DNA of 64,000 nucleotides from Reichenbachiella carrageenanivorans (GTDB lineage Bacteria > Bacteroidota > Bacteroidia > Cytophagales > Cyclobacteriaceae): assembly GCF_025639805.1 (NCBI RefSeq), contig NZ_CP106735.1, positions 932,001 through 996,000 of the forward strand, in the 5' to 3' direction. A program made the translations under genes and the position numbers. Numbering within the stretch: the first letter of the stretch is position 1; every line of letters begins with the position of its first letter. The notes under the pieces were generated by a model. The model made no database searches, was not told where the DNA came from, and saw only the letters and a program-made list of their open reading frames with translations. This document shows positions 39,264-61,463 of this stretch, piece by piece.

Positions 39264-41075
39264 ATGATAAAATTTCGCCTACTTTTTGTTTTCATCCTTA
39301 TAGCGTCCCGCCTTATTTGCCTTGGGCAAGACAAGCACTTTATGGACAGCCTGAAGGCCATACTGGTAGAAGAACCTGAAAACCTTGTAGCACTAAACGA
39401 CCTAGCATTTGCATATACCTACACCAACTTGGATAGTGCCAGAGCCTTGCTACTACAAGCTATAGAGATCAATGAAAATGATAGTCTACAGCTAGGAATA
39501 TCGAAAGAGACATTAGCCATTGTAGATGAAATCCAAGGCAATATAAGTTCGGCCCTTACCTTGCATTTTGAAAGTATCAAGATCTTTGAACAAATCAGCT
39601 CTTCCAAACACTTGGCATGGGCCTACAATGGCATGGGAGCGCTCCACTATCAGCAATATGATTACGACCAGGCATTGTTCTATTTCCTCAAGAGTATGGA
39701 TATCAGAACGCAACTCAATAACCCCACAGAGGTAGCCAAATCCATGGTCAACATTGCCCTGATATTTAACAAGACTGAACAATACGACTCCTCACTCTTC
39801 TACTTACATAGTTCGTTAGCGCCTTTCGTAGATAATACTGATCAACTGATGGAAAGCATTGTTTATCTCAACCTAGGGAGTACTTTCTCCTACATGGAAC
39901 AGTTTGATAGCGCAGAATATTACTTTAACAAGTCCGAGACCATCCAAAAAAAAATCGGAGATCATGAAGGTTTAGGCGTACTGTATCGAAAACTAGGAGA
40001 GCTATATAGTGAGAAAAAAGACCTCCTCAAAGCATTGGACTACTACACTTTAAGTCTAGAATATGTACAAAAACTCGGAGACATTGGTCGCTTCATAGAG
40101 ACCAAACAGGCACAATACTTAGTTTATGAAGCAATGGGAGATTTTCAAAATGCTTACCAGATTCAGTCTGAGTATTTAATATTACGTGATTCGTTGATCA
40201 ATATAAAAAACAAGGAAATCATCAATGAATACAATATCAAATATGAAACCGAACAAAAAGAACGTACCATAACTGAGTTAGAACTAGAGCAAAAAAATGC
40301 GGCCCTGGCATTCGCCAATTCTCAGAATCAGAGAAACATATTCATATTTGGGTTTGCCATTTTGATCATTTTCATTAGGTTTTTATACCATCGCTATACT
40401 ACCAAAAAGAAAACCTCTGAGCTGCTCTCAGAAAAGAATGTGGAGATTACCAAGGCCTTAGAAGATCGTGAAATACTGCTCAAAGAAATTCATCATCGAG
40501 TCAAAAACAACTTACAGGTCATTTCCAGCTTACTCAACCTCCAGGCGGGTTCATTGGACGATGATGTTGCCAAAGATGCCGTAAGAGAAGGACAGTCCAG
40601 AGTAAAATCCATGGCACTTATTCATCAAAAACTATACTCAGCGGATGATGTACGTGGAGTAGATGTACAAGATTATCTTGAAAACTTATCCGCAGAGTTA
40701 TTCCGTGCTTTCGGAGTAGATGAAGAAAAAGTGAATTGGGCCATAGATGCAGCAGGTTTGAAAATGGATATCGATACCGTAATTCCATTAGGTTTGATAA
40801 TAAACGAGCTCATTACGAACTCCATCAAATATGCTTTTCAAGACGTTGAGCATGGATTACTAAACATTTCTCTTGAAGAAACCGGTGAAACTATGCATGT
40901 GATGGTGAAGGACAATGGAATTGGAATGGATGAAGATGCATTGAAATCCTCCAATTCCTTCGGGTGGAAAATGATCAAATCGCTTTCGCGTAAATTGAAG
41001 GCAGAGATTAATGTGAAAAATGAGCAAGGTACGACCGTGTATTTAACCCTATCTAGATATAAATTAGTTGTATGA
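39264..41075 (+). CDS. TPR sensor histidine kinase, HisKA_2 type
   Basis: A 603-residue membrane sensor kinase. Order: signal/anchor (MIKFRLLFVFILIASRLICL), a periplasmic array of tetratricopeptide repeats (about 25-310; KHLAWAYNGMGALHYQQYDY, LIFNKTEQYDSSLFY, SVYLNLGSTFSYMEQFDSA and others), one membrane helix (about 348-366), a short coiled coil, the HisKA_2 dimer/phospho domain EIHHRVKNNLQVISSLLNLQ (His410-411), and a HATPase domain with IINELITNSIKYAF and DNGIGMD. The G2 element FGWKMIKSL is shorter than in HisKA kinases, as usual for this class. It overlaps the regulator gene by four bases. Confidence 0.93.
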   Translation: MIKFRLLFVFILIASRLICLGQDKHFMDSLKAILVEEPENLVALNDLAFAYTYTNLDSARALLLQAIEINENDSLQLGISKETLAIVDEIQGNISSALTLHFESIKIFEQISSSKHLAWAYNGMGALHYQQYDYDQALFYFLKSMDIRTQLNNPTEVAKSMVNIALIFNKTEQYDSSLFYLHSSLAPFVDNTDQLMESIVYLNLGSTFSYMEQFDSAEYYFNKSETIQKKIGDHEGLGVLYRKLGELYSEKKDLLKALDYYTLSLEYVQKLGDIGRFIETKQAQYLVYEAMGDFQNAYQIQSEYLILRDSLINIKNKEIINEYNIKYETEQKERTITELELEQKNAALAFANSQNQRNIFIFGFAILIIFIRFLYHRYTTKKKTSELLSEKNVEITKALEDREILLKEIHHRVKNNLQVISSLLNLQAGSLDDDVAKDAVREGQSRVKSMALIHQKLYSADDVRGVDVQDYLENLSAELFRAFGVDEEKVNWAIDAAGLKMDIDTVIPLGLIINELITNSIKYAFQDVEHGLLNISLEETGETMHVMVKDNGIGMDEDALKSSNSFGWKMIKSLSRKLKAEINVKNEQGTTVYLTLSRYKLVV

Positions 41076-41767
41076 GCAAACCCTCCGTCCTGGTAGTAGA
41101 AGATGAGCCACTAATAGCTGACGACATAGCCAGCATTCTTGAAAAAAATGGATACGACGTAGTAGATATAGTAGATGAAGTTGTAGACGCATTCGCATCC
41201 ATTAAAAAATATAATCCAGATATTGCACTGCTCGATATCAATATTGAAGGCGACGAAGATGGCATAGATCTCGCAGAAAGACTTAATGTACCCTTTGTAT
41301 TTCTCACATCTTACTACGATCAAAACACGCTTGATCGAGCCAAAAAGACTAATCCATCCGGATACATTGTGAAACCTTTCAACGAAAAGGACCTTATTGC
41401 TAATGTGGAAATAGCTCTATCCAGAACTCGAAAAAACAAGGCGAAAGTAGATTCACCAGAAAAACTTTTCTTAAGAAATGGTCAAGAGATTGTGTCAGTA
41501 ATGTCTTCTGATATTGTCTATGTAGAGGCGTTCGACAATTACGCCAATGTTTTCACCGCAACAGAAAAGTTCATCATCAGTCACACACTCAAAAGCATAG
41601 AGGAAAAACTATTGCCATTTGGTTTCATACGTGTACACAGATCGTATCTCATCAATTTCGCCCATGTAGATTCTCTATCGGAAGGATACGTTTTTCTCAA
41701 AGGACACAAAGTCCAAATTGGAAAGTCCTATCGCAAAGAATTCATTGATGGCCTTAGTATGCTATAA
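41072..41767 (+). CDS. LytTR-family response regulator
   Basis: A 231-residue transcriptional regulator paired with the kinase. The receiver domain (1-120) has VVEDEPLIADD, the phospho-acceptor Asp55 in ALLDINIEGDEDG, the switch Thr/Ser in FLTSYYDQ and Lys in GYIVKPF. The LytTR DNA-binding domain (about 130-231) shows DIVYVEAFDNYANVFT, FIRVHRSYLINFAHVD and HKVQIGKSYRKEF. LytTR proteins bind tandem direct repeats about two helical turns apart; such a repeat lies 19 bases downstream, ahead of the next gene. Confidence 0.95.
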   Translation: MSKPSVLVVEDEPLIADDIASILEKNGYDVVDIVDEVVDAFASIKKYNPDIALLDINIEGDEDGIDLAERLNVPFVFLTSYYDQNTLDRAKKTNPSGYIVKPFNEKDLIANVEIALSRTRKNKAKVDSPEKLFLRNGQEIVSVMSSDIVYVEAFDNYANVFTATEKFIISHTLKSIEEKLLPFGFIRVHRSYLINFAHVDSLSEGYVFLKGHKVQIGKSYRKEFIDGLSML

Positions 41768-41880: not shown

Positions 41881-44800
41881 ATGAAAAACATACTCACTAT
41901 CGTTTTCCTACTATCCTTGACCTGTACGGGTTTCGGACAATATAGTCTCATCAAAGACAAATGGGACGCCAGCTACTCTATTCAAGGAGGACTTGATGTG
42001 GCAAATGTGGCCTTCAGTTCTACGGGAGAAGTTTACGTTTTTGGAACCAATTTTACAGGCGGGGATCATAATGCCATCTTGGTCAAATATGATGCCAACG
42101 GCAACTACCAATGGGACGCATCCTATTCATCGTCATATGGTAACTCTGAGGATTTTGCCGTGAAGGTGGCGCTGGACGAAGATGATAATATTTTCACTGT
42201 GACCAACATTAACCCTGACGATGACCAGAATACCAGCGTTGCAAACGGTTTTATAATTCATAAGTACAATGACGCTGGAACACTGCTTTCAGAGTATGAA
42301 AATGTAAATGATTATACCGTAAAGTATGGACCAAAAGCATATGATTTCAATCTACAACATATCATAGGTAATGAACCAAACTATCTGTACCTCGCTACGA
42401 CCAGATTAGAATCTGGTGGCATGGGTCTTGCTGCACGGCTGTGGCGATTTGATAATTCGCTAAATGTAGACGCCAGTTCATCATACGATAGTGAACTGGA
42501 TGATATTCCATTAAGCTTGAGCGGGGTCTCCATATATTTTAAAAACAATTCCACTATACGATACGCAACTTGGAATCATTATTTTGAAAGTGGTGAGGAC
42601 CCTGAAAGTACTCCGAGTGGTTATGATGTGGGATCGTCCATAGATAAACTAATAAAATTTGATAGATGGTATTTACTAAAGCTTGCCAATGGACAGTATC
42701 ATATTCGGAGGAATAGTACAAATAGTGTGACGTATGATATTTCATACACTTTTACGGATATATATGATACGGGTAGTGAAATGCTCCTCACAGGATCCAA
42801 AACGGTTTCTGGACATGAAGAGATGGTGTTATTGGTTCTTAATAGAGATACAGGCGCATTGATAGAAGAAAAGGTGCTGGATGCCGATCATGGCACAGCT
42901 AGTTCTGTTGGTGTAAGTGTTTTTATTGGGTTTGGGAATAAAATAACTGTATTAGGCAATGTGGTAGAGGACGGGGTTCAATACCCTGGCTTAGTCACTT
43001 TCGACGAAGATACTTATGAGCAAATCGAGATTTCTAAATACACGTCTTCAGCATCTTCTCCCATAACACATGCTTATGAAGGAATAAACCAAGCCAATAT
43101 ATTGATCGGAAGCTCTGGGAGTTCGACTAAGATATATGCACTATGTATGGCATCATTTGCCATCACTTTAGGGAGTGATAAAACAGCCACAATTGGTGAG
43201 ACTGTTGTGCTAAAAGAAGGTGTCACCAATAGGCCAAATGTGACCTATTTATGGTCAACAGGCGCAACGACCCAGACGATTAGCGTAACCGAAGGAGGTA
43301 CGTATAGCCTCACAGTTTATAGTGAATACGGCTGTCCTGTATCAGACGAAATCAATGTGACATTCGTAGCAGCTCCGCCGGGCGGGCCTAAGCTCTTGGA
43401 GCCTGTGATTTCGTCTGTCGACCCAATCAGTCCGGTCATTCAATTTAGTTGGAAGAATGACGATCCTGATGCAGTCGATCATGTACTCGCATACGACCCA
43501 AACTGGAATCCCAATCCAGGCACTTACATTATAGCCTATAATGGCCCCAATACTTCGTATGATTTCGAAATATCAGCGCTCGCTGATTCTGAATATGATT
43601 TGGCCTTTTGGTCAGAAAATAGCGATAACGTAGGGTCTTCTCTTCAAAAAATGACATTGAATGCGTGCTCAGATTATGACATGAGTACGTTAGGGACTTA
43701 CCTAAGTGAGTCTTCCTTGAACGGTCCTTCGGAGGTAACTGATGAGGGAGGAACGTTCACTTATTATCTCGGCGGATCTCATGGTCCAGATCTTGCAGGC
43801 TCCTTTTTTGATTGGGATTTACCAGAAGGATGGGAGCTTGATAGTTACAATGAAACACAAATCACAGTTGCTGTGCCCGCCGATGCTAATAGCGGACAGG
43901 TAGGTGTTCGCATTGTAAACCCATGCTCAGGCGAAGCTACATCTTACCTCACCAGAGAAGTATACATCATCAAAGATCAAACGATTGATTTTCCTGAGCC
44001 TGATGCTAGGCAAGTAGGAGCTGCACCATTTGATTTGGGAGCTACTGCTTCTTCTGGCTTAGCGGTGACTTATGACGCCAGTCCCACCGATATTTTGGAG
44101 ATCAGCAATGGAATAGCTACTGCGCTAAAGGCCGGAACGGTAACCGTAACGGCCAGTCAGGCAGGTAATTCAGAATGGAACGCTGCACCGCAGGTGCAAC
44201 AAACCTTGACAGTATCTAAAGGGGATGACGTCATTACATTCAATGAGTTGGACAATGTGGTCTGGAATGCTGATAATTTTGACCTGGATGACCTGGCCTC
44301 ATCCAAAAGTGGAAGACAAATCACATGGGCAGGAACTGACGATCAAATTGCTATGATTTTGTCACTCGGGAGTGTGGATCCGAAGAAACCCGGCGCAATC
44401 ACCATCACAGCTAGTCTGGCAGGTAATGACGACTGGAACGCCGCACCAAGTGTACAACAAACACTAACAGTAGAAAAAGCGAATCAAACGATTACTTTCT
44501 TGCCGTTTCCAGGGACTACAACTGATGATGAAGAGCTTTACTTCAGCGAGTACATTAGCATTACTTCTGGCTTGGTGACAACAAAACACAGTTCGAACAC
44601 TTCCGTAGCAACCGTCGATGGAGGTGCTCTAACTATTCAAGGAGCAGGAACTACAATCATTACTGCATCTCAAGCAGGAAATGAATTTTACAATGCGGCG
44701 GAAAATCAGCAACAAACTTTAACGGTGACTCAGGTTTCTAATATAGCCTTTACTGAAGGCTCACCGACCATTTCGCATTACCATTCAGGCATTTACAGAT

Positions 44801-47547
44801 TGGCTCTAGAGACCACAGATGATGGGTATGTTTATTACATCGTGGAGCCGAGTGGAGGAACTGCTCCAACCGCAGCACAGATCCAATCCGGACGAAATGC
44901 TGATGGCGATGTGGTGTTCAGGTCGGATGCGGATGAGATTTTCGCAGGATCGGAAACAACACTAGACATTTACGGATTGGAAGAAAGTACAGCTTATGAC
45001 GTGTATTTGGTTTTGGAATCAGCGGACAATGAATTGCAACCTTCGGTCACCAAGCTCAGCCTTACCACTGAGACCCTTTCCAGTCTGGCTTGGAGTGCGG
45101 GCTATCCTCAGTTCGAGTATTTCTGCTGCGATACATACAGACTTCTTTTGCAGCTTACAGAAAATGGGAATGTATACTATGTGGTAGAACCAGAGGGTAG
45201 CGATGAACCCACAGCGGAGCAGATACAAAATGGAAACAATGCCAGTGGTTCGAGTGCCTTCAAAAGTGGGTCTGCCTATTCTCTAGTGGCTGGAGAAGAA
45301 TATAGTCAAGCGCAAATCAGTGGTTTGTCAGAATCTACAGCTTATGACATCTACCTAGTAGTGGCGGATGAGGAATACAATGTTTCTCCGAACGTGACCA
45401 AAATGGAGGTGATGACAGGAGACTACAGTGCACCAGAGTGGAGCGAGGGATACCCTCAAATGGGTACTATCTCTTCTTTGGAGGCGAATGTAGCTATCGA
45501 CTTAGAGGAAGAAACTGGTATGGTTTATTATGCGGTTTTTAGGAGTAGCAGCACAACTCACTTTCCAGCGAATTTGAAAAACGGAAGCAATTATCAAGCC
45601 CTTGACGAAGGTTCTGTTTCCGCAAGTGCACCAAACTTTACACTGAGCAACCTGAGTGAAGGGACAGACTATGACGTATGGCTAGTGGCTGAGGATGCAA
45701 GTGAAAACCTACAATCAACTGCTACCAAAATAGATTTCACAACTATAGATGATATCCATCCCGTTTTTGACGAGGGGTACCCTGAGCTATCATCGATCAA
45801 TGAAACAGCAATAGAAATTCAGGCACGGCTCGATGAGCAAGTAACAATCTATGCTGTGGCACAAATCAGCGGAAACCCAACGCCAACGGCCGCACAGGTA
45901 GTAGCAGGCGAGGACTATCAAGGACAACCAGCAGCAGGAGCAGTCAACTCAGAAGGTGATGCGCTAGGCACCCATGTATTCGTGGAAATCACGGAACTTA
46001 CGAGCCAAGTGGCCTATGATATTTTTGTAGTGGCAAAAGACCCTCATAGCAATACCACAGACCCTGTGAAACTCACTGCCACCACTTCCGATCAAACTGC
46101 TCCCATCGTTACACCAACATATCTGACCCAAATAGAAGTAACGGAAACTACCGCCACCTTCTCTTTTTCTCTAAACGAAGCTGGCACCTTCTACTACGTT
46201 CTAGATCCAAACGATGGCTCTACTCCTAGCCCAACACAAGTGATGAATGGGCAAATTGGTTCGGGAGAATCTGCACCTAGCTCGGAAAATATTGTGGTTC
46301 TGGCAGATCAAACTTACGAATTCGAATTGACAGGATTGACTGCAGCAAGTGAATATGAAGTGTACTTCGTTGCGAAAGATGAAAATGACAATGTCAGCGA
46401 GTATACTTACTCCTCGTACTTTGAAACATCGGACAGCACACCCCCTGTTTTTACAAGTACACCTGAAATCACTGCTGTTTCTAAAATGGAGATCTCACTC
46501 ACGGCAAATATTAATGAATACGGATCGGTTCATGCAGCCATTATAACCGAAGAAGCACCCATTCCATCCGTTGCGGATCTGGCCAATCAAAACATAGATG
46601 GCGCCATATATCAAGGATCGTCTTCTCCAGAATATATTTCCATTTTCGCAACACTAGAATTAGGTATCACTTATCAACTCGTACTAGTAGCAGAGGATGA
46701 AAGCGGAAATTTACAAGAAACCGTAACCGTGTTGGACTTCACAGTGCCAGACGATAGAATTGATCAAGTCATTACGTTTGAATTGGCAAGTGAGGCCACT
46801 GTTGGAGATCCAAACCTTCCACTAAATGCTAGCAATAACTCTGGAATGGACATCTACTTCAAAAGCTCAGACGAAGATATCGCAATCATAGTCACGACTC
46901 AAGAAGGTATGCAAATACAAATAATCGGAGGAGGTACAGTAGAAATCACTGCTTATAATGAAGGTGACTTGACTCACAAACCAGGAGAGGCTTCGAAACT
47001 CTTAACCGTAGCTAAGCTAGAGCAAACCATAAATTTCACAACAATAGGCGATAAAGCCCTCGAAGACTCACCCATTGCCTTACAAGCATCTGCAAGCTCT
47101 AACCTCACGGTAGAATTTGTACTGCTCGAAGGTAATGGTGTGATCTCGGGAAATGAGCTAACCATAAATGAAACTGGCCTATTCAAAGTAGAAGCCATAC
47201 AAACAGGAAACAATCAATACGATGCCGCACTATCTGTCATCCAAATTTTTGAAGTAGCTGCTCCTCCTGTCACAGCGGTAGCTCACGAGCTACTCAACCA
47301 TGTACGCATCTATCCTGTTCCTTTTACCTCGTCATTTAGCATAGCACTTCCTGATCAGATCGAAGGACAATATAAATTGACGATCAACAGTCTAAATGGT
47401 ACAAGAGTCTATCAAGCAGAATTAAATAGCAACGAACTCAGACATGAGGTCACCGAATTGAGTCAAATCCCAAGTGGGATATACTTAGTCCAGCTCTCAC
47501 AAAACAATCAAGTGAAAACTTACAAACTGATAAAAAGCAATGAGTAG
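41881..47547 (+). CDS. Giant type IX-secreted repeat protein (adhesin-like)
   Basis: A 1888-residue surface or extracellular protein. Signal peptide 1-19 (ending TGFG-Q). Residues 20-430 resemble a beta-propeller of SBBP-like repeats (AFSSTGEVYVFGTNFTGGDH, AILVKYDANGNYQWDASYSS). About 430-495 is an Ig-like domain (YLWSTGATTQTISVTEGGTY). About 500-695 holds fibronectin- and PKD-like folds. About 697-950 has three Ig-like repeats closing TASQAGNSEWNAAPQVQQTLTV-style. About 954-1620 has six fibronectin-like repeats of ~110 residues, four of which open with W/F-x-x-G-Y/S-P. Two more Ig-like repeats run to 1790. The end (1797-1888, VRIYPVPFTSSFSIALP ... GIYLVQLSQNNQVKTYKL) is a type A sorting domain. 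Likely an adhesin or matrix protein; no catalytic motif was seen. Confidence 0.85.
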   Translation: MKNILTIVFLLSLTCTGFGQYSLIKDKWDASYSIQGGLDVANVAFSSTGEVYVFGTNFTGGDHNAILVKYDANGNYQWDASYSSSYGNSEDFAVKVALDEDDNIFTVTNINPDDDQNTSVANGFIIHKYNDAGTLLSEYENVNDYTVKYGPKAYDFNLQHIIGNEPNYLYLATTRLESGGMGLAARLWRFDNSLNVDASSSYDSELDDIPLSLSGVSIYFKNNSTIRYATWNHYFESGEDPESTPSGYDVGSSIDKLIKFDRWYLLKLANGQYHIRRNSTNSVTYDISYTFTDIYDTGSEMLLTGSKTVSGHEEMVLLVLNRDTGALIEEKVLDADHGTASSVGVSVFIGFGNKITVLGNVVEDGVQYPGLVTFDEDTYEQIEISKYTSSASSPITHAYEGINQANILIGSSGSSTKIYALCMASFAITLGSDKTATIGETVVLKEGVTNRPNVTYLWSTGATTQTISVTEGGTYSLTVYSEYGCPVSDEINVTFVAAPPGGPKLLEPVISSVDPISPVIQFSWKNDDPDAVDHVLAYDPNWNPNPGTYIIAYNGPNTSYDFEISALADSEYDLAFWSENSDNVGSSLQKMTLNACSDYDMSTLGTYLSESSLNGPSEVTDEGGTFTYYLGGSHGPDLAGSFFDWDLPEGWELDSYNETQITVAVPADANSGQVGVRIVNPCSGEATSYLTREVYIIKDQTIDFPEPDARQVGAAPFDLGATASSGLAVTYDASPTDILEISNGIATALKAGTVTVTASQAGNSEWNAAPQVQQTLTVSKGDDVITFNELDNVVWNADNFDLDDLASSKSGRQITWAGTDDQIAMILSLGSVDPKKPGAITITASLAGNDDWNAAPSVQQTLTVEKANQTITFLPFPGTTTDDEELYFSEYISITSGLVTTKHSSNTSVATVDGGALTIQGAGTTIITASQAGNEFYNAAENQQQTLTVTQVSNIAFTEGSPTISHYHSGIYRLALETTDDGYVYYIVEPSGGTAPTAAQIQSGRNADGDVVFRSDADEIFAGSETTLDIYGLEESTAYDVYLVLESADNELQPSVTKLSLTTETLSSLAWSAGYPQFEYFCCDTYRLLLQLTENGNVYYVVEPEGSDEPTAEQIQNGNNASGSSAFKSGSAYSLVAGEEYSQAQISGLSESTAYDIYLVVADEEYNVSPNVTKMEVMTGDYSAPEWSEGYPQMGTISSLEANVAIDLEEETGMVYYAVFRSSSTTHFPANLKNGSNYQALDEGSVSASAPNFTLSNLSEGTDYDVWLVAEDASENLQSTATKIDFTTIDDIHPVFDEGYPELSSINETAIEIQARLDEQVTIYAVAQISGNPTPTAAQVVAGEDYQGQPAAGAVNSEGDALGTHVFVEITELTSQVAYDIFVVAKDPHSNTTDPVKLTATTSDQTAPIVTPTYLTQIEVTETTATFSFSLNEAGTFYYVLDPNDGSTPSPTQVMNGQIGSGESAPSSENIVVLADQTYEFELTGLTAASEYEVYFVAKDENDNVSEYTYSSYFETSDSTPPVFTSTPEITAVSKMEISLTANINEYGSVHAAIITEEAPIPSVADLANQNIDGAIYQGSSSPEYISIFATLELGITYQLVLVAEDESGNLQETVTVLDFTVPDDRIDQVITFELASEATVGDPNLPLNASNNSGMDIYFKSSDEDIAIIVTTQEGMQIQIIGGGTVEITAYNEGDLTHKPGEASKLLTVAKLEQTINFTTIGDKALEDSPIALQASASSNLTVEFVLLEGNGVISGNELTINETGLFKVEAIQTGNNQYDAALSVIQIFEVAAPPVTAVAHELLNHVRIYPVPFTSSFSIALPDQIEGQYKLTINSLNGTRVYQAELNSNELRHEVTELSQIPSGIYLVQLSQNNQVKTYKLIKSNE

Positions 47548-48688: not shown

Positions 48689-49426
48689 ATGGATACCGAA
48701 GAATACCGGAAGTCCCCTGGATTTCAAAACTTACTACTTATACTTTCTATATATGTAGTAGTAGAGCTCTATCTAGACACTATTCTAGATTATCCAGAAA
48801 ACGTCAAAGAAGCATTGTCGTGGATCGACTTTGGCATTTGCATGCTTTTTCTTTTCGATTTTTTTAATGGTTTTTTCCGATCCAAAAACAAATGGAGATA
48901 TTTTAAAAACAACTGGATAGACCTAATATCCTCGATCCCAACCATAGAGGCACTCCGCATGGGACGCATCGTACGTGTGATCAGGATATTGCGTGTATTG
49001 CGCTCCGCCAAGTATATTTTTAACGCCTTTAGTAAAAAGAATTCATTCAATACTTTCAGAAATCTGATGCTCATCAGTGGCATGATTATTTTATTTTTCA
49101 CCTTGAGCTTTTATCATCTGGAGCGAAATGCCAACCCTCACATCACATCTATGTCGGACAGTCTATGGTGGACCACCGTGACGACAATCACCGTGGGTTT
49201 TTTGCAAGACATCCCTCCTGTGACCGTAGAAGGCAAGTTTTTGAGCGTGGCATTGATCCTGCTGGGGATGATTATGTTTTCGACACTTACAGGTACGATC
49301 ACAGATTATTTCATCGAGGATGAAGACATTCAGGTCAACATTAACGAACTCAAAGCGAAGGTAGAGTCCTTGGAAGGTAAGATAGATCAGATGACCAATA
49401 AGATTGATCAGTTGAATAAGTCCTGA
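48689..49426 (+). CDS. Voltage-gated-type ion channel with atypical selectivity filter
   Basis: A 245-residue six-helix inner-membrane channel of the voltage-gated superfamily. Hydrophobic helices S1-S3 lie at about 12-30, 45-62 and 72-88; S4 is RMGRIVRVIRILRVLRSAK with arginines every three residues (90-108); S5 is 122-142, the pore loop about 157-174, S6 185-208. A charged C-terminal coiled coil (214-244, heptads such as LKAKVESLEGKIDQM) probably assembles the tetramer. The filter reads TITVGFLQDIPP, where TVGYGD would be expected, so K+ selectivity is doubtful. A -7-like box (TATTTTTG, 48663) precedes it. The N-acetyltransferase gene follows after 23 bases. Confidence 0.82.
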   Translation: MDTEEYRKSPGFQNLLLILSIYVVVELYLDTILDYPENVKEALSWIDFGICMLFLFDFFNGFFRSKNKWRYFKNNWIDLISSIPTIEALRMGRIVRVIRILRVLRSAKYIFNAFSKKNSFNTFRNLMLISGMIILFFTLSFYHLERNANPHITSMSDSLWWTTVTTITVGFLQDIPPVTVEGKFLSVALILLGMIMFSTLTGTITDYFIEDEDIQVNINELKAKVESLEGKIDQMTNKIDQLNKS

Positions 49427-53360: not shown

Positions 53361-54353
53361 ATGCGCTTTAAGCTCTTATCTCTCTCCCTCCTATCTCTCT
53401 TTGCTTCACTCCCTTTCACCAGTTTTGCTCAATGCCAAGAAGGCCATGTGGCTGGTGAAAATCTAATCGACAATTCAGGATTTTGCGAGGGATATCACCA
53501 TTTTCGATCAGATTATAATTTCAATAGAGATGCCAACGGTGCCACGTTCATTAAACCTGGCTCTTTTGCCACAGTAACTAATCCGCAGTATGCCATGTCA
53601 CTCTATCCTAAATGCTTCGACCATACTTCGAATGGCGGTGTGATGCTGGTTTTCAATGGATCCGACTCTCCTAATGACAACGCTTGGGAGCAAGAGCTCG
53701 ACAACCTGAAGACCAATACAGATTATGTTTTTAGCTTTTGGGCCACTTCTTTGCTCAAATTTTCTCCAGCACAACTCGACGTTTTCATCAACGGAAAATC
53801 ACAAAAAAAGACTTTCACACTAGACTCTACCCTCTGTGAATGGAATCAATACTCGATGACTTGGAATTCGAAAAATAACACAAATGTACAATTGGCGATC
53901 AGGAACCTGAATTCAGAATGCTACGGGGCACATTTTGCCTTAGACGATGTCAGTTTTACTTCTTGTGAGCCCGACGACTTACTACATGAACTCAAGGAAG
54001 CTAAAGTAGGTCAGGTATTTAGACTCGACAATATTTATTTTGAAACAAATAAATATATCCTCAAAGAAGAATCTTTTGTAGAATTAGATTTGCTCGTAGA
54101 GTTCTTGTGGACAAAAAAGCAGGTAGAAATAGAAATAGCTGGACATACGGACAACGTAGGCTCTATGACCTACAACCAAATTCTATCTGAAAACAGAGCC
54201 AAAGCAGTAGCCGAGTACTTGAAAGAAAGAGGGATTTCGCCTTCAAGATTTACCTCAAATGGCTATGGAGAAGAACGGCCAGAATATGACAACAGCACCT
54301 CTGAAGGTCGACAAAAAAACCGACGGGTTGAATTTAAAATTACCAAAATTTAA
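53361..54353 (+). CDS. OmpA-family protein with N-terminal sugar-binding-like domain
   Basis: A 330-residue exported protein. After the signal peptide (ending TSFA-Q), residues 25-200 look like a galactose-binding/carbohydrate-binding beta-sandwich of the type common in Bacteroidota: ENLIDNSGFCEGYHHF, TNTDYVFSFWATSLL, GAHFALDDVSF. A short linker leads to the OmpA peptidoglycan-binding domain (about 213-330; FRLDNIYFETNKYILKEES, EIAGHTDNVGSMTYNQILSENRA, NRRVEFKI), whose Asp and Arg that hold diaminopimelate are present. There is no N-terminal barrel, so it is probably a cell-wall-anchored periplasmic or outer-membrane lipid-facing protein. The periplasmic binding protein gene follows after 33 bases. 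Confidence 0.88.
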   Translation: MRFKLLSLSLLSLFASLPFTSFAQCQEGHVAGENLIDNSGFCEGYHHFRSDYNFNRDANGATFIKPGSFATVTNPQYAMSLYPKCFDHTSNGGVMLVFNGSDSPNDNAWEQELDNLKTNTDYVFSFWATSLLKFSPAQLDVFINGKSQKKTFTLDSTLCEWNQYSMTWNSKNNTNVQLAIRNLNSECYGAHFALDDVSFTSCEPDDLLHELKEAKVGQVFRLDNIYFETNKYILKEESFVELDLLVEFLWTKKQVEIEIAGHTDNVGSMTYNQILSENRAKAVAEYLKERGISPSRFTSNGYGEERPEYDNSTSEGRQKNRRVEFKITKI

Positions 54354-54386: not shown

Positions 54387-55202
54387 ATGAATCGAATTAT
54401 GAAAAACACCTTAAAAATCCTATCCGCAATCTTGATCATTTGCGTATCTTTTTGCACAGCACACGCTCAGGGAACATTAAAGAAAATAGTAAACAAAGGA
54501 GAGCTAAGGGTAGGCCTTACTGCCGACCAACCGCCCTTCTCTATGAAGAACAAACAAGGTGAAATCATTGGCTACGAAGTAGACATGGCAACCCTATTGG
54601 CAAAGTCTATGGGTGTGAAGCTTAAATTGGTCGTACTCCCATTCAACAGCCTGATCGACGCCTTAGATGGTGGCAAAATTGACATGGTCATGTCTGGCAT
54701 GACGATCACTCCTGAGCGAAACCTAAAAGTGGCTTTTGTAGGCCCATACATGGTTTCTGGCAAGTCTATCCTAACCAAGTCATCTATCTTGGCTCGTGCC
54801 GAATCTACAGAAGAACTAAACGAAGGATCCAGAATCAGCGTAGCTGTGCTCGAAGGGTCTACTAGTCAAACGTTTGTGGAAACTTACATGGAAAATGTAG
54901 ACATGACCAAGGTGAAAAACTATGACGAAGGTATCAATCTAGTAAGAACTGAAATCGTGAATGCTTTAGTAGCCGATTACCCTTTCTGTGTGATCTCTGC
55001 TATGAAATATGGCAATGAAGGCATGGTAACTTTGGATCAGCCGTTGACAATCGAGCCTATCGGTGCGGCACTTCCTAAAAACGACCCCTTGTTTCTCAAT
55101 TTGGTACAAAACTACGTGAGCTCACTAGAACTTGCAGGTGTATTTGAGATGCTCTCTGCCAAATGGCTCGAAGACGGCACTTGGATGCTAGAGGTAGAAT
55201 AA
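54387..55202 (+). CDS. Orphan periplasmic amino-acid-type binding protein (SBP_bac_3)
   Basis: A 271-residue soluble periplasmic binding protein. The signal peptide ends TAHA-Q without a lipobox. The two-lobed SBP_bac_3 fold shows GELRVGLTADQPPFSM, GYEVDMATLLAKSMG, GGKIDMVMSGMTITPERNLKV (the Arg that binds an alpha-carboxylate) and the late VNALVADYPF with the Asp that binds an alpha-amino group. The ligand is therefore probably an amino acid or similar. No ABC permease or ATPase is nearby, so it may deliver or sense ligand for another protein. An ATG at 54399 is an alternative start. It ends in a strong terminator 24 bases later and the K+ channel gene comes next. Confidence 0.88.
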   Translation: MNRIMKNTLKILSAILIICVSFCTAHAQGTLKKIVNKGELRVGLTADQPPFSMKNKQGEIIGYEVDMATLLAKSMGVKLKLVVLPFNSLIDALDGGKIDMVMSGMTITPERNLKVAFVGPYMVSGKSILTKSSILARAESTEELNEGSRISVAVLEGSTSQTFVETYMENVDMTKVKNYDEGINLVRTEIVNALVADYPFCVISAMKYGNEGMVTLDQPLTIEPIGAALPKNDPLFLNLVQNYVSSLELAGVFEMLSAKWLEDGTWMLEVE

Positions 55203-55276: not shown

Positions 55277-56116
55277 ATGGATTCAGATTATTCTCAAATG
55301 AAAAGATGGCAACAAAAGATACATGAAGTCATCTTCGGCTATCACACCACAGCGGGTCGAGTATTCGACCTTTCTTTGCTAGTCGCTATAGTTGCTAGTG
55401 TTTTGGTGGTCATGTTAGAAAGTGTGAAAGACCTAGAACAGCACTATGGTGAAGAAATGCGAATAATAGAATGGGTGTTCACTTTTCTATTTTCCATAGA
55501 ATACATCGCTCGAATCGTCTCATCTCCGCGACCATTAAAATATATCACCAGCTTTATGGGTATTGTGGATTTGCTCTCTCTCATCCCGACCTACCTGAGT
55601 TTCTTTTTTGTGGGAACTCACTCTCTGTCTGTCATCCGATCTTTTAGGCTCATTAGAGTATTTAGGATATTGAAGCTGACCCATTTTATGGGTGGCGCAC
55701 AGCAACTGGCCACGGCACTTTGGGGTAGCCGTCACAAAATCATCGTCTTTATGGGTACGGTGAGTTGTATCGTAGTGATCGCTGGCACCATGATGTATCT
55801 CATAGAAGGTGGGCAAAATGGGTTTACTAGTATTCCTAAAAGTATCTACTGGGCGATTGTGACGATTACTACGGTAGGCTACGGCGACATCGCACCGCAG
55901 ACCATTTTCGGACAGACAGCCGCTTCTATTCTCATGATCTTGGGTTATGCGATTATAGCAGTGCCTACTGGGATAGTGACAAGCCAGATGATGGCCGATG
56001 CAAGAAGACTGGGTACCATTACCTGTTCGAACTGCGGAGAAGAAGACTTGCCTAACCGCTCAAGGTTTTGCCTAAACTGTGCCTCTCGGCTCAATAACCC
56101 TCCAGATCAGAAATAG
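55277..56116 (+). CDS. Voltage-gated-type K+ channel with C-terminal zinc ribbon
   Basis: A 279-residue inner-membrane channel of the Kv type. S1-S3 are at about 30-48, 62-80 and 92-112; S4 is RSFRLIRVFRILKL (121-134) with four regular Arg/Lys; the pore loop holds TTVGYGD (filter 199-204), the canonical K+ signature. After S6 a short tail carries a zinc ribbon with Cys250, Cys253, Cys265 and Cys268 (TCSNCGEEDLPNRSRFCLNC). Such a tail may bind Zn2+, report redox or join subunits. It lies after the orphan binding protein gene and a terminator, and its last ten bases overlap the porin gene on the other strand. Confidence 0.92.
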   Translation: MDSDYSQMKRWQQKIHEVIFGYHTTAGRVFDLSLLVAIVASVLVVMLESVKDLEQHYGEEMRIIEWVFTFLFSIEYIARIVSSPRPLKYITSFMGIVDLLSLIPTYLSFFFVGTHSLSVIRSFRLIRVFRILKLTHFMGGAQQLATALWGSRHKIIVFMGTVSCIVVIAGTMMYLIEGGQNGFTSIPKSIYWAIVTITTVGYGDIAPQTIFGQTAASILMILGYAIIAVPTGIVTSQMMADARRLGTITCSNCGEEDLPNRSRFCLNCASRLNNPPDQK

Positions 56117-57203: not shown

Positions 57204-59309
57204 TTAGGTGTAGAATACAAATAACGTGATGAGCATCCAGGTAAATAACAATACTGGCCAGTAGGAAATTTTAACCAGTAGGTTGTCTTGATAATGCAAA
57301 AACTTCGATTCTTTCCCTTTGGTAAAAGCCACCACGTTGATCGCCAACAATGCCATGATCACATACATGGTCAGATAAAACGTCTCTATATAGGTAAGGG
57401 AAGGCGTATTGAGTCTTCTCCTCAAATCGATATGCGCTACTAGGAGCACAAAGAAGAAACCCGCACAGCTCTGCACGGCTCCCATCATACTCACACCTGA
57501 TTTATCATCTTTGTCTTTGGTATTGCTATAGAATATCAAAAAGATCATAGAGGCAACCACCATAATAGGAATGATATTCATCACGAGTACATTCAACAAT
57601 CTACGTTTGAGGTTGATCGAATATTTCATGATGGGAAATTGGTTGAGTCCACTGAATTTTTGATGGCCAAACCGATCGTGAAAATTGACTAGATCAAACG
57701 AAAACTGTGTGGAGAGTAGCTTGGAGTCATTGAGATAAATATCTTTATTAATACCAGGAGAGCTGTAAGGCAAAATGTCCGAATACCCATCTACATCTGG
57801 CACCAGCAAAATCCCTGAATCCACATCTGGGTACATCATTTCTATCTTCACGTCCCGTACATCAAAAGGGTAGTTGGAGTAGTTGAAGGGCATCTTGAGC
57901 ATGACTTTGACACTCCACGTATGTGTTATAAAATTCTTCTCTTCTTTTTCTGATATTTTAGTAACCAACGTTCGGCCTGCCAAGGCTTCTTGAGGAAATC
58001 TAAGCCCTGCTTCATAAAATTTAGCCAAATGTTTAGGCCACTTCTGCCAGACTTCGCCACGAATGATCACGTTGTAAGAATCTCTGAATTCGAACTCTTC
58101 TACAAAAATACCTGTGGCCACGGGTATGAATTTTTGCAACCCGAGTTTCATCACTTTTTGATTTTCATTGTTTATAAATGAAGCCAAGCTGGTACGGCTA
58201 TCTACAAACACTTCTTTATCTCCTCCTTCGGAGTAATTATAGTTTAGATTGAGATACCACATCACCATAATATTGCCTACGATCACAATAGACAGATATA
58301 CTGAGACAGACCATAATTTTTGCCTAGTATTTGTATTTACTTTGATCAAAAGGAGAAGGAGAAGAAATATCAGCGCTGAGACACCCAAACATATCTTCAC
58401 CAGTTTTCTATGTAGCTGGTTGGCATTGCCTAGGAGATCCGACGAATTGAATACGATTAAAACCTTCCATTTTACCTTTGGTATTTCAGTGTAAAAAGCA
58501 TGTGACTTTTTCCCCGTATATCTGGTAAAATCCAGATTGCCGCTTTCAGTCAGCAGAATGACATCTACCAAATCTTGCAAGCCCAACTCTTCAGCAATAG
58601 ACTGGATAGAAACATCCAAAACGTATTCTGAAATAGGGTGCGCCACCAGCTTCCCACTTTCAGCAAAGATCATAGCTGTACCCGTCTGACCAACAGCCAA
58701 CGAATCCATTTTAGATCCAAATTTTTTAAGATCGAGGGTAAGTGAAATAATACCTGATGGCTCCGAAGATCCATTGAGATGAAAAGGCAATCCATAATCA
58801 GCCACAAGTAGTTTTGCCCCTATTGCAAAGTATGGTTCTGTCCAATATGGCCCATTTTTCTGCATTGGTCCCAAATACCATTCATTGGTTTGGATAGAAT
58901 CTGCAGTATAGTCATACTTTTCTTCTAGATAGATGGTTCGCCCTTGGCGTTTATCATAAAATGGAGCAAAAAGCGGTGTGTTTTCATCCATCGCAAATGG
59001 CTCATAAGCTATCGTAACACCTTGTAGGTAAAACAAATCCCTACTTGACTTGTGCACCAAACTAATCACTTCTTCCTTAGATAAGGACTGAGATTCCAAC
59101 TGATCTCTCAGCTTTTCACCTTCAGCCATGATGTCCTCCAAAATTGTAATAATATGTCCTTCTACCTTCTCCAGCGACTCTTGCCCTATGCGTATGCTTT
59201 CATCCTCTCTATGCTGCATATAGCTCATATAATCATATACGAAGTAAACACTAAGCACAGCAAAAGCTATGGTAAAAAGGAGGTACGTCTTATTACGGAT
59301 GTAAATCAT
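57204..59309 (-). CDS. Cache-domain pentameric ligand-gated ion channel homolog (paralog 1)
   Basis: A 701-residue inner-membrane protein combining two receptor types. Helix 1 (about 7-25) leads to a periplasmic double-Cache domain (30-300; AYEPFAMDENTPLFAPFYD, NEWYLGPM, YWTEPYFAIGAKLLVADYG, LDL at 192-194; second lobe GQTGTAMIFAESGKLVAHP). Helices 2 and 3 (302-323, 333-353) return to a second periplasmic domain (356-568) with GEVWQKWP and NYPFDVRDVKIEMMYP, matching the Pro-loop (F/Y-P-F-D) region of ligand-gated channels. Four helices follow: M1 (571-594, with Pro581), M2 (604-627), M3 (639-662), M4 (680-700), with the chain ending outside. Order and topology are those of pentameric channels. 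Tandem paralog 15 bases upstream. Confidence 0.82.
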   Translation of the reverse strand: MIYIRNKTYLLFTIAFAVLSVYFVYDYMSYMQHREDESIRIGQESLEKVEGHIITILEDIMAEGEKLRDQLESQSLSKEEVISLVHKSSRDLFYLQGVTIAYEPFAMDENTPLFAPFYDKRQGRTIYLEEKYDYTADSIQTNEWYLGPMQKNGPYWTEPYFAIGAKLLVADYGLPFHLNGSSEPSGIISLTLDLKKFGSKMDSLAVGQTGTAMIFAESGKLVAHPISEYVLDVSIQSIAEELGLQDLVDVILLTESGNLDFTRYTGKKSHAFYTEIPKVKWKVLIVFNSSDLLGNANQLHRKLVKICLGVSALIFLLLLLLIKVNTNTRQKLWSVSVYLSIVIVGNIMVMWYLNLNYNYSEGGDKEVFVDSRTSLASFINNENQKVMKLGLQKFIPVATGIFVEEFEFRDSYNVIIRGEVWQKWPKHLAKFYEAGLRFPQEALAGRTLVTKISEKEEKNFITHTWSVKVMLKMPFNYSNYPFDVRDVKIEMMYPDVDSGILLVPDVDGYSDILPYSSPGINKDIYLNDSKLLSTQFSFDLVNFHDRFGHQKFSGLNQFPIMKYSINLKRRLLNVLVMNIIPIMVVASMIFLIFYSNTKDKDDKSGVSMMGAVQSCAGFFFVLLVAHIDLRRRLNTPSLTYIETFYLTMYVIMALLAINVVAFTKGKESKFLHYQDNLLVKISYWPVLLFTWMLITLFVFYT

Positions 59310-59324
59310 AGACTAATGGTACAA

Positions 59325-61463
59325 TCAATTATAAAACCTAGACAAGGTAATGATCAACCAAGACCCTAACAAAAATGGCCAATAGGCCAACTTCACTAGC
59401 AAGTTGTCCTCGTAGTGTAGGAAACTAGAATCTTTGGTTTTGGTAAAAGCCACCACATTGATCGCCAACAACCCTATCATCACATACATCGTGAAATAAA
59501 ATGTCTCTAGATAAGTAATATCTGGAGAAGCGATTCGCTTTCGCAAATCGATATGCGCCATGAGCAACACAAAGAAAAACCCTGCACAACTCTGCACCAC
59601 ACCCATCATACTCACCCCTGTATTAGAGTCTTTTCTTTTTGAATTGCTATAGAAAATCAAAAAGATCATCGAGGCCACAACTAGTATCGGAATAATATTG
59701 GACACAAAAGCATTGAGAAATCGGCGCTTGAGGTTGACATTGAATTCCATAATAGGGTATTCATTGTCTCCATTATAAGCTGTATTTCCAAATTCGGTAT
59801 GAAAATCAATTCGCTCAAACGAAAAATAACTCGACTTCATAGTTGCTTGAGGAAAGTAAATATTCTTTTTAATCCCAGGAAAAGCCGAAGGATTCAGCAC
59901 TTTGTATCCCTCCATGTCAGGCACCAGCAAGATGTTTGATTGCAAATCTGGATAGGCAATCTCTATACTTACATCACGAGAATCAAACGGGAATTTTAAG
60001 TACCTAAGCGGTAGCCTAAGTGTCGTTTTAAAATCCCACAAGTATAAATTTTCATACGTCTCTTCATTTCGCTTAATAGACACCAATTCTTTCGACGTAC
60101 CCAATGTAGGTGACTGCTGTACAAACTGAAACCCAGGTTTAAACTCTTCATCCAATCCTATCGGCCATTTTTGCCATATCTTACCTCGTACACTTACATT
60201 GTAGGAATCTTTAAACTCCATCTCTTCTACATAAATCCCTGTATTGATCGTCATGTATGGGTCGTAGCCCAATCTAATCAATCGCTCATTTTCTGTGAAA
60301 ACGTATCTGTACATCTCTGTACTATTCAATATTTTTACCGAATCGGATGGGTCTTCTGAGTAGCCATGATTGACATTGAGATTCCAAATAACAATAATAT
60401 TGACTACAACGAGTATAGAGAAGACAGTAGAAATAATCCATAGTTTGGTATTGGTATCTTCATTGATTCTAATCAATACCAACAACCAAATAATGACCAA
60501 AAACGAGGAAGCCAAGGACAGATTCACAACCTTATTGCCCAAAACCCTAGATCCTCCACGCAAGTCGTCGGTTGCAAAAACCACTACCGACTTCCAGCCA
60601 GTAGACGGAATGGTATTGAAGAAAAGATACGAGTCCACATTGGTATATACACTATTGTATTCTAAATGACCCTTCTCCTTGCTCATCACTTCTTCGGCCA
60701 TAGGTTCTATACCATAAGCTCGACCAATATCCATTAGGGTTACGTTCAAAATATACTTTGATGTAGGATGTGCTAGCATCACTCCCTTGGATGAAGTAAG
60801 AAACGCATACGCGGTACTGCCTAGAGAAAGCTGGCCTAGCACAGCAGACAACCGCTCCAAAGCGATAGTCAGCGTAACTGTCCCTATCAATGTTTTCTCT
60901 CCATCAATCTCCTTAAACAACGGGCTACCATAGTCTGAAACTATAAGCTGAGCTCCTTGTGCAAAATAGGGTTCAGACCACTTAGCAGTTTTATTTTGAG
61001 CCACTTCGGAGTACCACTTTGCCGTAGTGAGTGTCGTGTCCGTATAATCATAAACATCTGCTATGTCTATAAAACTCCCTAAACGCTTATCGTAATAAGG
61101 AGCAAACAAAGGAATCCTCTCATCGAAGGCAAACGGCTCATAGGCTACAGTAACGCCTAAAATAAAATCGAAGGCCTTGCTCTCTGATTCTATCAGTCCT
61201 AGCAATTCCTCTGGAGAATAATTAGTTGAACCCACTTTTTCGGAAATGAGTGCAGTAGCAATGACCACATCGTTGAGCATAGAATCGAGCTGATGTGTAA
61301 TCGAATTATTCGCTTCCTTTCCTATGCGAATACTTTCTTGTTCGATGTCATTATTGTAGGAATAAAAGTCAAATAAAAGTGCCGACACTAAGATCAGCGA
61401 CATCACAGCGATGTACTGATAAGTTCTTCGACGGAGTACTACTCGAGTATGAAATGCAGCCAT
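59325..61463 (-). CDS. Cache-domain pentameric ligand-gated ion channel homolog (paralog 2)
   Basis: A 712-residue paralog of the next gene with the same architecture: helix 1 (about 15-33), double-Cache domain (38-305; AYEPFAFDERIPLFAPYYD, KWYSEVAQ, KWSEPYFAQGAQLIVSDYG), helices 2-3 (311-332, 341-360), receptor sandwich (362-580) with GKIWQKWP and KFPFDSRDVSIEIAYP, then M1 (583-605, Pro592), M2 (616-638), M3 (650-673), M4 (691-711). The FPFDSRDV segment closely resembles the YPFDSQT of the GLIC channel. M1-M3 are nearly identical between the two paralogs while the Cache parts have drifted, suggesting a shared pore and different ligands, possibly in mixed pentamers. It starts 23 bases after an outer-membrane barrel gene. 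Confidence 0.82.
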   Translation of the reverse strand: MAAFHTRVVLRRRTYQYIAVMSLILVSALLFDFYSYNNDIEQESIRIGKEANNSITHQLDSMLNDVVIATALISEKVGSTNYSPEELLGLIESESKAFDFILGVTVAYEPFAFDERIPLFAPYYDKRLGSFIDIADVYDYTDTTLTTAKWYSEVAQNKTAKWSEPYFAQGAQLIVSDYGSPLFKEIDGEKTLIGTVTLTIALERLSAVLGQLSLGSTAYAFLTSSKGVMLAHPTSKYILNVTLMDIGRAYGIEPMAEEVMSKEKGHLEYNSVYTNVDSYLFFNTIPSTGWKSVVVFATDDLRGGSRVLGNKVVNLSLASSFLVIIWLLVLIRINEDTNTKLWIISTVFSILVVVNIIVIWNLNVNHGYSEDPSDSVKILNSTEMYRYVFTENERLIRLGYDPYMTINTGIYVEEMEFKDSYNVSVRGKIWQKWPIGLDEEFKPGFQFVQQSPTLGTSKELVSIKRNEETYENLYLWDFKTTLRLPLRYLKFPFDSRDVSIEIAYPDLQSNILLVPDMEGYKVLNPSAFPGIKKNIYFPQATMKSSYFSFERIDFHTEFGNTAYNGDNEYPIMEFNVNLKRRFLNAFVSNIIPILVVASMIFLIFYSNSKRKDSNTGVSMMGVVQSCAGFFFVLLMAHIDLRKRIASPDITYLETFYFTMYVMIGLLAINVVAFTKTKDSSFLHYEDNLLVKLAYWPFLLGSWLIITLSRFYN

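Follow-up and report, generated by a model that had tools for sequence, protein, structure and literature searches.

A tandem pair of genes predicted to encode Cache-sensor/pentameric ligand-gated channel fusions in Reichenbachiella carrageenanivorans

Introduction

Bacterial relatives of the animal neurotransmitter receptors have natural ligands and roles that are largely unknown. Two adjacent genes of Reichenbachiella carrageenanivorans (NZ_CP106735.1, positions 932,001–996,000 of the forward strand) raise the question of whether a chemosensory domain has been joined to such a receptor, and of how it might act on the pore. We refer to this whole stretch of 64,000 nucleotides (nt) as the window, and all positions given here are window coordinates. 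An original prediction, made from the sequence of the window without database searches, held that the two gene products, P1 and P2, are fusions of a Cache sensor to a pentameric ligand-gated ion channel (pLGIC). Homology searches confirm this observation: the sensor half is recognized by Pfam and the channel half by profile matches to the proton-gated channel GLIC, with weaker support from structure searches (Foldseek). A soluble Cache domain offers a direct route to a native stimulus, and the layout of the two proteins poses the question of how a helix movement of the chemoreceptor type can gate a pentameric pore. Here, we describe the two halves of the fusion, their relatives, a possible gating mechanism, and the alternatives to it.

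Homology of the sensor and channel halves

Both open reading frames (ORFs) are intact as originally delimited (Table 1) and lie 15 nt apart. P1 and P2 represent two subtypes, which we call type 1 and type 2, respectively. The N-terminal half of each is a double Cache (dCache) domain: PF22673, which describes the first PDC module, matches above its cut-off in both proteins (1.4e-12 in P2), and PF02743 falls slightly below its cut-off (42.5 bits for P1 and 43.9 for P2, versus 45). The channel part of neither protein matches any Pfam family at E ≤ 1. The NCBIfam model LGIC_1 does match (4.4e-6 and 1.1e-4, residues 467–656 and 480–639), far under its cut-off of 500 bits.

The identity of the channel half emerges from profiles built on relatives, i.e., a full-length alignment of 13 Cache-pLGICs (A1) and a channel-half alignment of 18 relatives (A4). 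Searched against the sequences of the PDB, the full-length profile finds a Cache domain at positions 52–326 (3lib, 1.4e-19) and GLIC at positions 457–681 (6.3e-4). At E ≤ 0.01 the channel-half profile retrieves 70 different sequences, with GLIC as the best (5.2e-7); the best 60 of these 70 are labeled as proton-gated ion channel or Glr4197 (GLIC), bar one “ligand-gated ion channel”. Its alignment with GLIC chain 5v6n_C runs from the later part of the extracellular domain (ECD) to M3 (GLIC residues 87–268), with the first ECD strands and M4 outside. Comparison at the profile level with a canonical pLGIC of 320 aa from the phylum gave E = 6.2e-4 at an HHalign probability of 28%, versus E = 0.23 and 0.3% for the neighboring K+ channel, used as a control.

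Structure prediction, which had been suggested as a check, gave the expected order of secondary-structure elements at low confidence: from an alignment of six sequences, AlphaFold reached a mean predicted local distance difference test (pLDDT) score of 56.6 for full-length P1 and 50.3 for its channel half. Foldseek gave 111 matches at E ≤ 0.001 for the full-length model, and the best 50 of them belong without exception to dCache/chemoreceptor or pLGIC structures; for the channel-half model, the best 50 of 458 are all pLGICs, led by GLIC (7.6e-7). TM-scores were low in both cases (<0.4 for the channel half). Given the low confidence and low TM-scores, we base the fold mainly on homology and less on the models, and the Foldseek matches indicate consistency rather than proof.

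The original assignment to the Cys-loop/Pro-loop family stands in its Pro-loop part: the [YF]PFD motif, a proline in M1, and homology to GLIC all agree with it. The only cysteines are at residues 307 and 615 of P1 and residue 626 of P2, all in predicted membrane helices, and with none in either ECD the two proteins are not strict (animal) Cys-loop receptors. By homology, then, the channel half is a Pro-loop receptor. GLIC itself lacks the Cys-loop cysteines. Prokaryotic members of the family have been described as lacking them (PMC4795631; here and below, papers are cited for those parts of them that were available).

A predicted seven-helix layout and conserved residues

Hydropathy and alignment give the same order of elements in P1 and P2, and it is the order first proposed: a membrane helix (TM1), the dCache domain, two further helices (TM2 and TM3), the ECD, and M1–M4. 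P1 has seven hydropathy peaks, namely those of TM1, TM2, and TM3 (Table 1) and others at residues 574–592, 606–624, 644–662, and 681–699. P2 has six above threshold; its M4 falls below threshold yet aligns with M4 of P1, and M4 is the last element in every row of alignments A1 and A3. Read from these predictions, the sensor is a membrane-anchored module of the chemoreceptor type (TM1-Cache-TM2), followed by a putative cytoplasmic hairpin to TM3, with seven predicted helices per subunit. Such a layout would leave the C-terminus outside and would place both the Cache domain and the ECD in the periplasm.

Invariant in all 13 Cache-pLGICs of A1 are the PFD of [YF]PFD, the M1 proline (P581), W421-Q422, and R569. 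The PFD is also invariant in all 18 sequences of the channel-half alignment, and a relative from Acaryochloris has YPLD. Loop D of the acetylcholine-binding site carries a tryptophan on strand 2, which we take to be comparable to W421 of P1; likewise, we liken T399-G400 of P1 to the TGI motif near the start of the GLIC ECD. M2 ranks with the most strongly conserved stretches, contains large residues (GFFFVLLVAHIDLRRR), and is preceded by an odd M1–M2 loop.

An aromatic pocket in the sensor

Pockets of dCache domains that bind amino acids, amines, and uracil have an aspartate in common (PMC10104139, PMC11245519, PMC12415202). When P1 is aligned with McpX and with the uracil receptor 9hvj, this position corresponds to T191, and it is also T in P2; among 13 proteins of the family, 11 have T there, one has V, and one has I. 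Neither P1 nor P2 therefore has the aspartate that serves as the criterion for the dCache_1AA and dCache_1AM families (D173 of PctA, D208 of McpX). The stacking tryptophan, W144, is kept in all 13, and position 160 is Y in nine, F in two, and G in two. The best match of P1 is the uracil receptor, with which it shares the tryptophan and tyrosine mapped to W160 and Y176, and not N178, N180, and D205. With the aspartate replaced and W144 kept, an aromatic pocket appears to remain, and the ligand is not one that can be named from its residues.

Two old subtypes with a fast-changing sensor

Trees of the whole protein, of the Cache domain, and of the channel each separate type 1 from type 2, with clade support of 75–100; on these trees, the split predates the sampled species. 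Position 602 is D in all seven type 1 proteins and S in all four of type 2, and position 599 is D or N in type 1 and R or K in all four of type 2, i.e., the subtypes differ in a fixed charge at the M1–M2 loop that is acidic in type 1 and basic or neutral in type 2. These residues suggest that the charge at the pore's inner mouth may differ between the types. Since the register of M2 relative to GLIC is uncertain, we claim no ion selectivity.

Eight genomes of the genus were examined. Four have a tandem pair, three have one gene, and one has none. Both types occur in two genomes (G000 and G002), type 1 alone in one (G004), and type 2 alone in two (G001 and G007); two more (G003 and G005) have two type 1 copies each, and in the genome without either (G006) the genes that usually flank the channels are 332 bp apart. 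The presence of two divergent copies side by side had been taken to point to hetero-oligomers. As stated, that idea finds no support in this distribution: given the single-copy genomes and the type 1 pairs, heteromers are possible and not required. In the three single-copy genomes, either type would have to act by itself, provided that it functions at all. To our knowledge, no heteromeric bacterial pLGIC has been characterized.

The three regions of the proteins change at different rates. P1 differs from its two nearest orthologues by 28–31% in the Cache domain, 8–10% in the ECD, and 6–7% in the pore, giving a Cache/ECD ratio of 2.8–3.7 (intervals 1.8–6.5). The ratio is 1.9 for the other type 1 orthologue pair, 2.4–2.9 between the type 1 copies within G003 and within G005, 1.3–1.8 within type 2, and 1.08 between P1 and P2, which differ by 65% in the Cache domain, 60% in the ECD, and 28% in the pore. 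Rapid change of the sensor next to a conserved channel is consistent with re-tuning to other ligands, and relaxed constraint would leave a similar pattern.

Relatives with and without the Cache domain

P1 and P2 are the only family members found in the 4.8-Mb source genome, where a third match has E = 0.11 and spans 32 positions. Channel-half matches occur in seven of the eight genus genomes and in nine of 390 genomes drawn from the order, source genome included. Among 395 genomes drawn from the phylum, at least 51 match profile A1, 37 of them in the Cache part alone, and matches in at least 14, again including the source, reach its C-terminal positions; at most two candidates per genome were scored, so these counts are lower bounds. 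Complete ORFs of 718–724 aa were found at 11 of 12 phylum loci, with no clear ORF at the other (L034). Among 72,556 plasmid records searched by tblastn, 11 match; of these, three from Vibrio, identical to each other, encode a full Cache-pLGIC, one from Acaryochloris encodes a channel without Cache, and at least six match in the Cache part only. A phage collection of 50,697 records gave no match, and no relative turned up in a single scan of viral contigs. The Pfam channel family PF02931 matches one of 296 phylum genomes and misses the source genome; inventories based on it will therefore overlook the family.

Five relatives without Cache, of 464–487 aa, match profile A1 from positions 276–304, i.e., around TM2, to its end. 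The Acaryochloris plasmid protein matches from position 334 (TM3) to near M4 and continues for some 110 residues beyond. None of these six proteins matches a Pfam family at its cut-off. Because homology in the Cache-less relatives extends through TM2 and TM3, TM2-TM3-ECD-M1–M4 can be regarded as a single homologous core that is preceded by a variable part; judged from these alignments, the sensor looks exchangeable. A tree of the core groups the Cache-less proteins (the five short ones and that of Acaryochloris) in one clade with support 97, placed beside Cytophaga with support of only 50. The branch between the rest and f37, a family from another lineage of the phylum, has support 100, and sensor-bearing proteins are found to either side of it. 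The simplest history consistent with this tree would be one old fusion and later loss of Cache.

The f37 proteins (L059–L067, L069, and L070) carry a sensor that resembles Cache but is divergent, and their M2 contains an insertion of two residues; their genes often lie beside very large ORFs and ORFs of 569–628 aa.

Co-occurrence with an orphan binding protein

About 4 kb from P2 lies a gene for an orphan periplasmic solute-binding protein (SBP) of the SBP_bac_3 family, a binding protein of the amino-acid type. An orthologue (≥59% identical) is present in all four genus genomes with type 2 and in none of the four without. On a tree of two neighboring genes, at least two joint losses of the SBP and type 2 (G003/G005 and G004, the latter placed with support 61) are needed if both are ancestral, and the K+ channel gene between them was retained at each; the losses of type 1 (G001 and G007) left the binding protein in place. 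The idea that the binding protein belongs with just the K+ channel is weakened by their distributions, the channel being present in all eight genomes and the SBP orthologue in four.

The SBP gene adjoins the K+ channel gene, no ABC permease or ATPase gene was recognized among its neighbors, and its product may serve signaling.

A second arrangement comes from a secondary replicon of Vibrio sp. THAF191d (L057:2875–8010), where genes for a methyltransferase-type protein, a fusion of SBP_bac_3 with a permease-like region, a 207-aa membrane protein, and a Cache-pLGIC all overlap by 4 bases. The permease-like region escapes Pfam and was identified by tblastn matches to records of amino-acid transporters, and no ATPase gene was read from the sequence among the ORFs of ≥150 aa in 14 kb. 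This run is perhaps a transporter turned receptor. At one f37 locus (L061), a PBP_like_2 binding protein (2.3e-42) is encoded about 4 kb from the channel gene, and L064 and L067 contain ORFs with a similar beginning. Tasneem et al. reported stand-alone PBP-II genes beside some bacterial channels in 2004 (PMC549065), which was the only paper found that links a Cys-loop receptor, a periplasmic binding protein, and an operon.

A possible gating mechanism and its alternatives

We propose, at a probability of roughly 0.72 for the explanation as a whole, that P1 and P2 are homopentameric, possibly also mixed, Pro-loop pLGICs gated via the Cache sensor. The data show intact genes, domain homology, the order of elements, the family history in outline, and the co-occurrence with the binding protein; from these we infer assembly as a pentamer, conduction, gating by the sensor, the direction of its effect, the class of ligand, and contact with the binding protein. 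In each subunit, TM1 and TM2 would anchor the sensor in the periplasm beside the channel. A small molecule would bind the membrane-distal Cache module and shift TM2, as in chemoreceptors, and the cytoplasmic hairpin would relay this shift to TM3, which runs straight into the start of the ECD. Movement of TM3 and the ECD would then bias opening of the M2 pore. As the protein has no domain inside the cell, it could only signal by ion flux or membrane potential. The ligand of P2 probably reaches it via the orphan binding protein or jointly with it. A bolder generalization, which we offer as conjecture and judge unlikely in its entirety, is a modular class of receptor channel, with a TM1-sensor-TM2 unit leading via the hairpin into a pLGIC, 35 helices per pentamer, and exchangeable sensors; a type 2 holo-receptor would be gated by its dedicated periplasmic binding protein, and, in species that have both types, mixed P1/P2 channels would weigh two chemical inputs.

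Several observations weigh against our main proposal. Both AlphaFold models are weak. The pore lacks a clear signature of ion selectivity, and gaps interrupt the alignment of M2 to GLIC, so that conduction could be impaired or unusual. In all six f37 proteins tested, dCache_1 is below its cut-off (1.7e-5 to 0.017 in five, with one unmatched at 0.1), and f37 sensors are at best divergent Caches. The co-occurrence of the SBP with type 2 rests on eight related genomes, and a second SBP paralogue (49–52% identical) lies elsewhere in six of them, two of which lack P2. The three Vibrio records are 100% identical and count as one case. Lastly, ORFs of at least 70 aa flanking 12 loci (11 from f37 and one from Cytophaga) gave no match of the SBP_bac_3 type, nor did L009; with none at these 13 other loci, we reject a binding-protein partnership as a general rule.

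Four other explanations have to be weighed against sensor-gated channels. The Cache domain may be inert or structural, with gating through the orthosteric site of the pLGIC or by protons, as for GLIC, and with the sensor tuning only assembly or kinetics, a role reported for the N-terminal domain of DeCLIC (PMC12664993). Such a role would agree with the higher conservation of the ECD than of Cache in type 1, with the clade that lacks Cache altogether, and with replacement of the key pocket aspartate; it sits less well with the persistence of the pocket aromatics (W144 in every protein, Y or F at position 160 in 11 of 13) and with the retention of Cache in Reichenbachiella, Cytophaga, and Vibrio proteins and of a Cache-like sensor in f37. 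We regard an inert sensor as less likely than not, though as the likeliest of the four. P1 and P2 could also form obligatory hetero-pentamers that join two ligand inputs in one channel, as the adjacency of the genes in one run, the conservation of the pore between types relative to Cache and ECD, and the retention of a tandem pair in four of eight genus genomes would favor. Genomes with type 1 only, type 2 only, or two type 1 copies argue that neither type needs the other there, and constraint alone also predicts a conserved pore, making obligatory heteromers improbable.

It is less probable still that the pore does not conduct and that the protein passes a conformational signal to a partner, e.g., the neighboring K+ channel. 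M2 is atypical, with its large residues and odd preceding loop, and the K+ channel gene is a constant neighbor, but that gene persists in G006, which has no channel of the family, and M2 is among the most conserved parts of the protein. The last alternative, an unrelated Cache-linked membrane family with a YPFD that arose by chance, could appeal to the missing Pfam pLGIC match at E ≤ 1 and to the failure of PF02931 in the source genome. The matches of both profiles to GLIC, the LGIC_1 match (4.4e-6), the canonical pLGIC comparison (at a probability of only 28%, yet E = 6.2e-4 versus 0.23 for the K+ channel control), and the pLGICs found by Foldseek largely refute it.

The gene run and its surroundings

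P2 and P1 are the middle genes of a four-gene run on one strand, in the order 230-aa protein, P2, P1, and 364-aa protein, with gaps of 23, 15, and 2 nt (Table 1). Neither outer protein matches a Pfam family at E ≤ 1. Orthologues of the 230-aa protein precede the channel genes at L003 and L004, and orthologues of the 364-aa protein come after them at L005 and L008. Channel genes with the same flanking genes are kept in seven of eight genomes of the genus, from which we conclude that the observation is not due to chance. A promoter and terminator scan (27 versus 20.4 and 11 versus 5.5 in shuffles) used a consensus unsuited to the phylum and was set aside.

Elsewhere in the window, a second Ion_trans-family channel gene, without GYG, lies at 48689–49426, so that both genes of this family are within 13 kb of the pLGIC pair; the K+ channel at 55277–56116 has a weak zinc-ribbon match at its C-terminus. 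The gene at 41881–47547, whose product of 1888 aa carries a Por secretion sorting domain at its C-terminus, adjoins a pair of genes for a HisKA_2 kinase and a LytTR regulator (39264–41767).

Table 1. Features of the Cache-pLGIC locus, in window coordinates
Feature	Position	Strand	Evidence
P1 (type 1), Cache-pLGIC, 701 aa	57204..59309	-	Intact ORF; Pfam, NCBIfam, profile homology
P1 TM1, residues 10–28, predicted N-terminal anchor	59226..59282	-	Hydropathy
P1 dCache sensor, residues 31–298	58416..59219	-	PF22673 1.1e-12, PF02743 7.2e-11; PDB phmmer matches 9hvj, 3lic, 3li8
P1 TM2 (304–322), predicted cytoplasmic hairpin, TM3 (332–350)	58260..58400	-	Hydropathy; start of homology to Cache-less relatives
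P1 pLGIC extracellular domain, residues 366–568; WQ 421–422, YPFD 480–483	57606..58214	-	Alignments, channel-half profile
P1 predicted pore domain M1–M4, residues 569–701; M1 proline 581, M2 about 605–630	57207..57605	-	Alignment, profile, hydropathy
P2 (type 2), Cache-pLGIC, 712 aa, 44% identical to P1	59325..61463	-	Intact ORF
P2 dCache sensor, PF02743 match at residues 39–295	60579..61349	-	Pfam; PDB 3lib 9.4e-15
P2 TM2 and TM3, residues 313–359	60387..60527	-	Hydropathy
P2 extracellular domain (with FPFD) and M1–M4	59328..60341	-	Alignments
230-aa protein, putatively secreted, opens the run 23 nt ahead of P2	61487..62179	-	Sequence reading
364-aa protein, putative outer-membrane beta barrel, 2 nt after P1	56107..57201	-	Sequence reading
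K+ channel, Ion_trans family, filter TTVGYGD, convergent neighbor	55277..56116	+	Pfam 4.9e-34
Orphan periplasmic solute-binding protein, SBP_bac_3, convergent to the channel run	54387..55202	+	Pfam 1.8e-32
OmpA-domain gene	53361–54353	convergent to channel run	Pfam

Comparison with known systems

The solved structure closest in sequence to the channel half is that of GLIC, the proton-gated channel of Gloeobacter, which has the YPFD and the M1 proline alike. It matches the channel half only, and its M1–M3 stretch is shorter by two gaps. For the sensor half, the counterparts are dCache chemoreceptors, in which a homologous double-Cache sensor likewise lies between two membrane helices; P1 and P2 differ from known dCache receptors in their predicted channel output and in the T at the position of D173/D208/D205. 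DeCLIC is another pLGIC whose periplasmic part includes a large additional domain, but that domain consists of two jelly-roll lobes rather than Cache, and the available part of its description mentions no membrane helices between the lobes and the ECD (PMC12664993). According to the same paper, of November 2025, the N-terminal domains of prokaryotic pLGICs are little known, DeCLIC being the only pLGIC whose extra N-terminal domain is partly characterized.

The original prediction knew of no characterized Cache version. We likewise found none in the literature searched, which was mostly without subscription papers, and the word “cache” is absent from a 2016 inventory (PMC4795631), but fusions of this architecture have been in print since 2004: Tasneem et al. 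described fusions of MCP-N/Cache with ART-LGIC in Cytophaga, Methanosarcina, and Microbulbifer and proposed that these channels act in chemotaxis (PMC549065). Among the papers listed by one search, Cache domains are named only in that study and in one on a Campylobacter chemoreceptor. The domain order is shared, with the Cache sensor N-terminal to the ligand-binding domain and a channel of four membrane helices, and Cytophaga proteins (C. aurantiaca L009/L022; G111) are 26 and 27% identical to P1. The available part of that study places the extra domains between signal peptide and ligand-binding domain and does not mention TM2 and TM3, whereas we propose a seven-helix layout; it expects homopentamers, as most genomes are single-copy, whereas here there is a tandem pair. 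As far as the literature searched extends, P1 and P2 are thus apparently uncharacterized members of an architecture known since 2004, to which our analysis adds the predicted seven-helix layout, a sensor that looks exchangeable, two old subtypes, and a link to a binding protein, and they are good first candidates for the study of this type of fusion.

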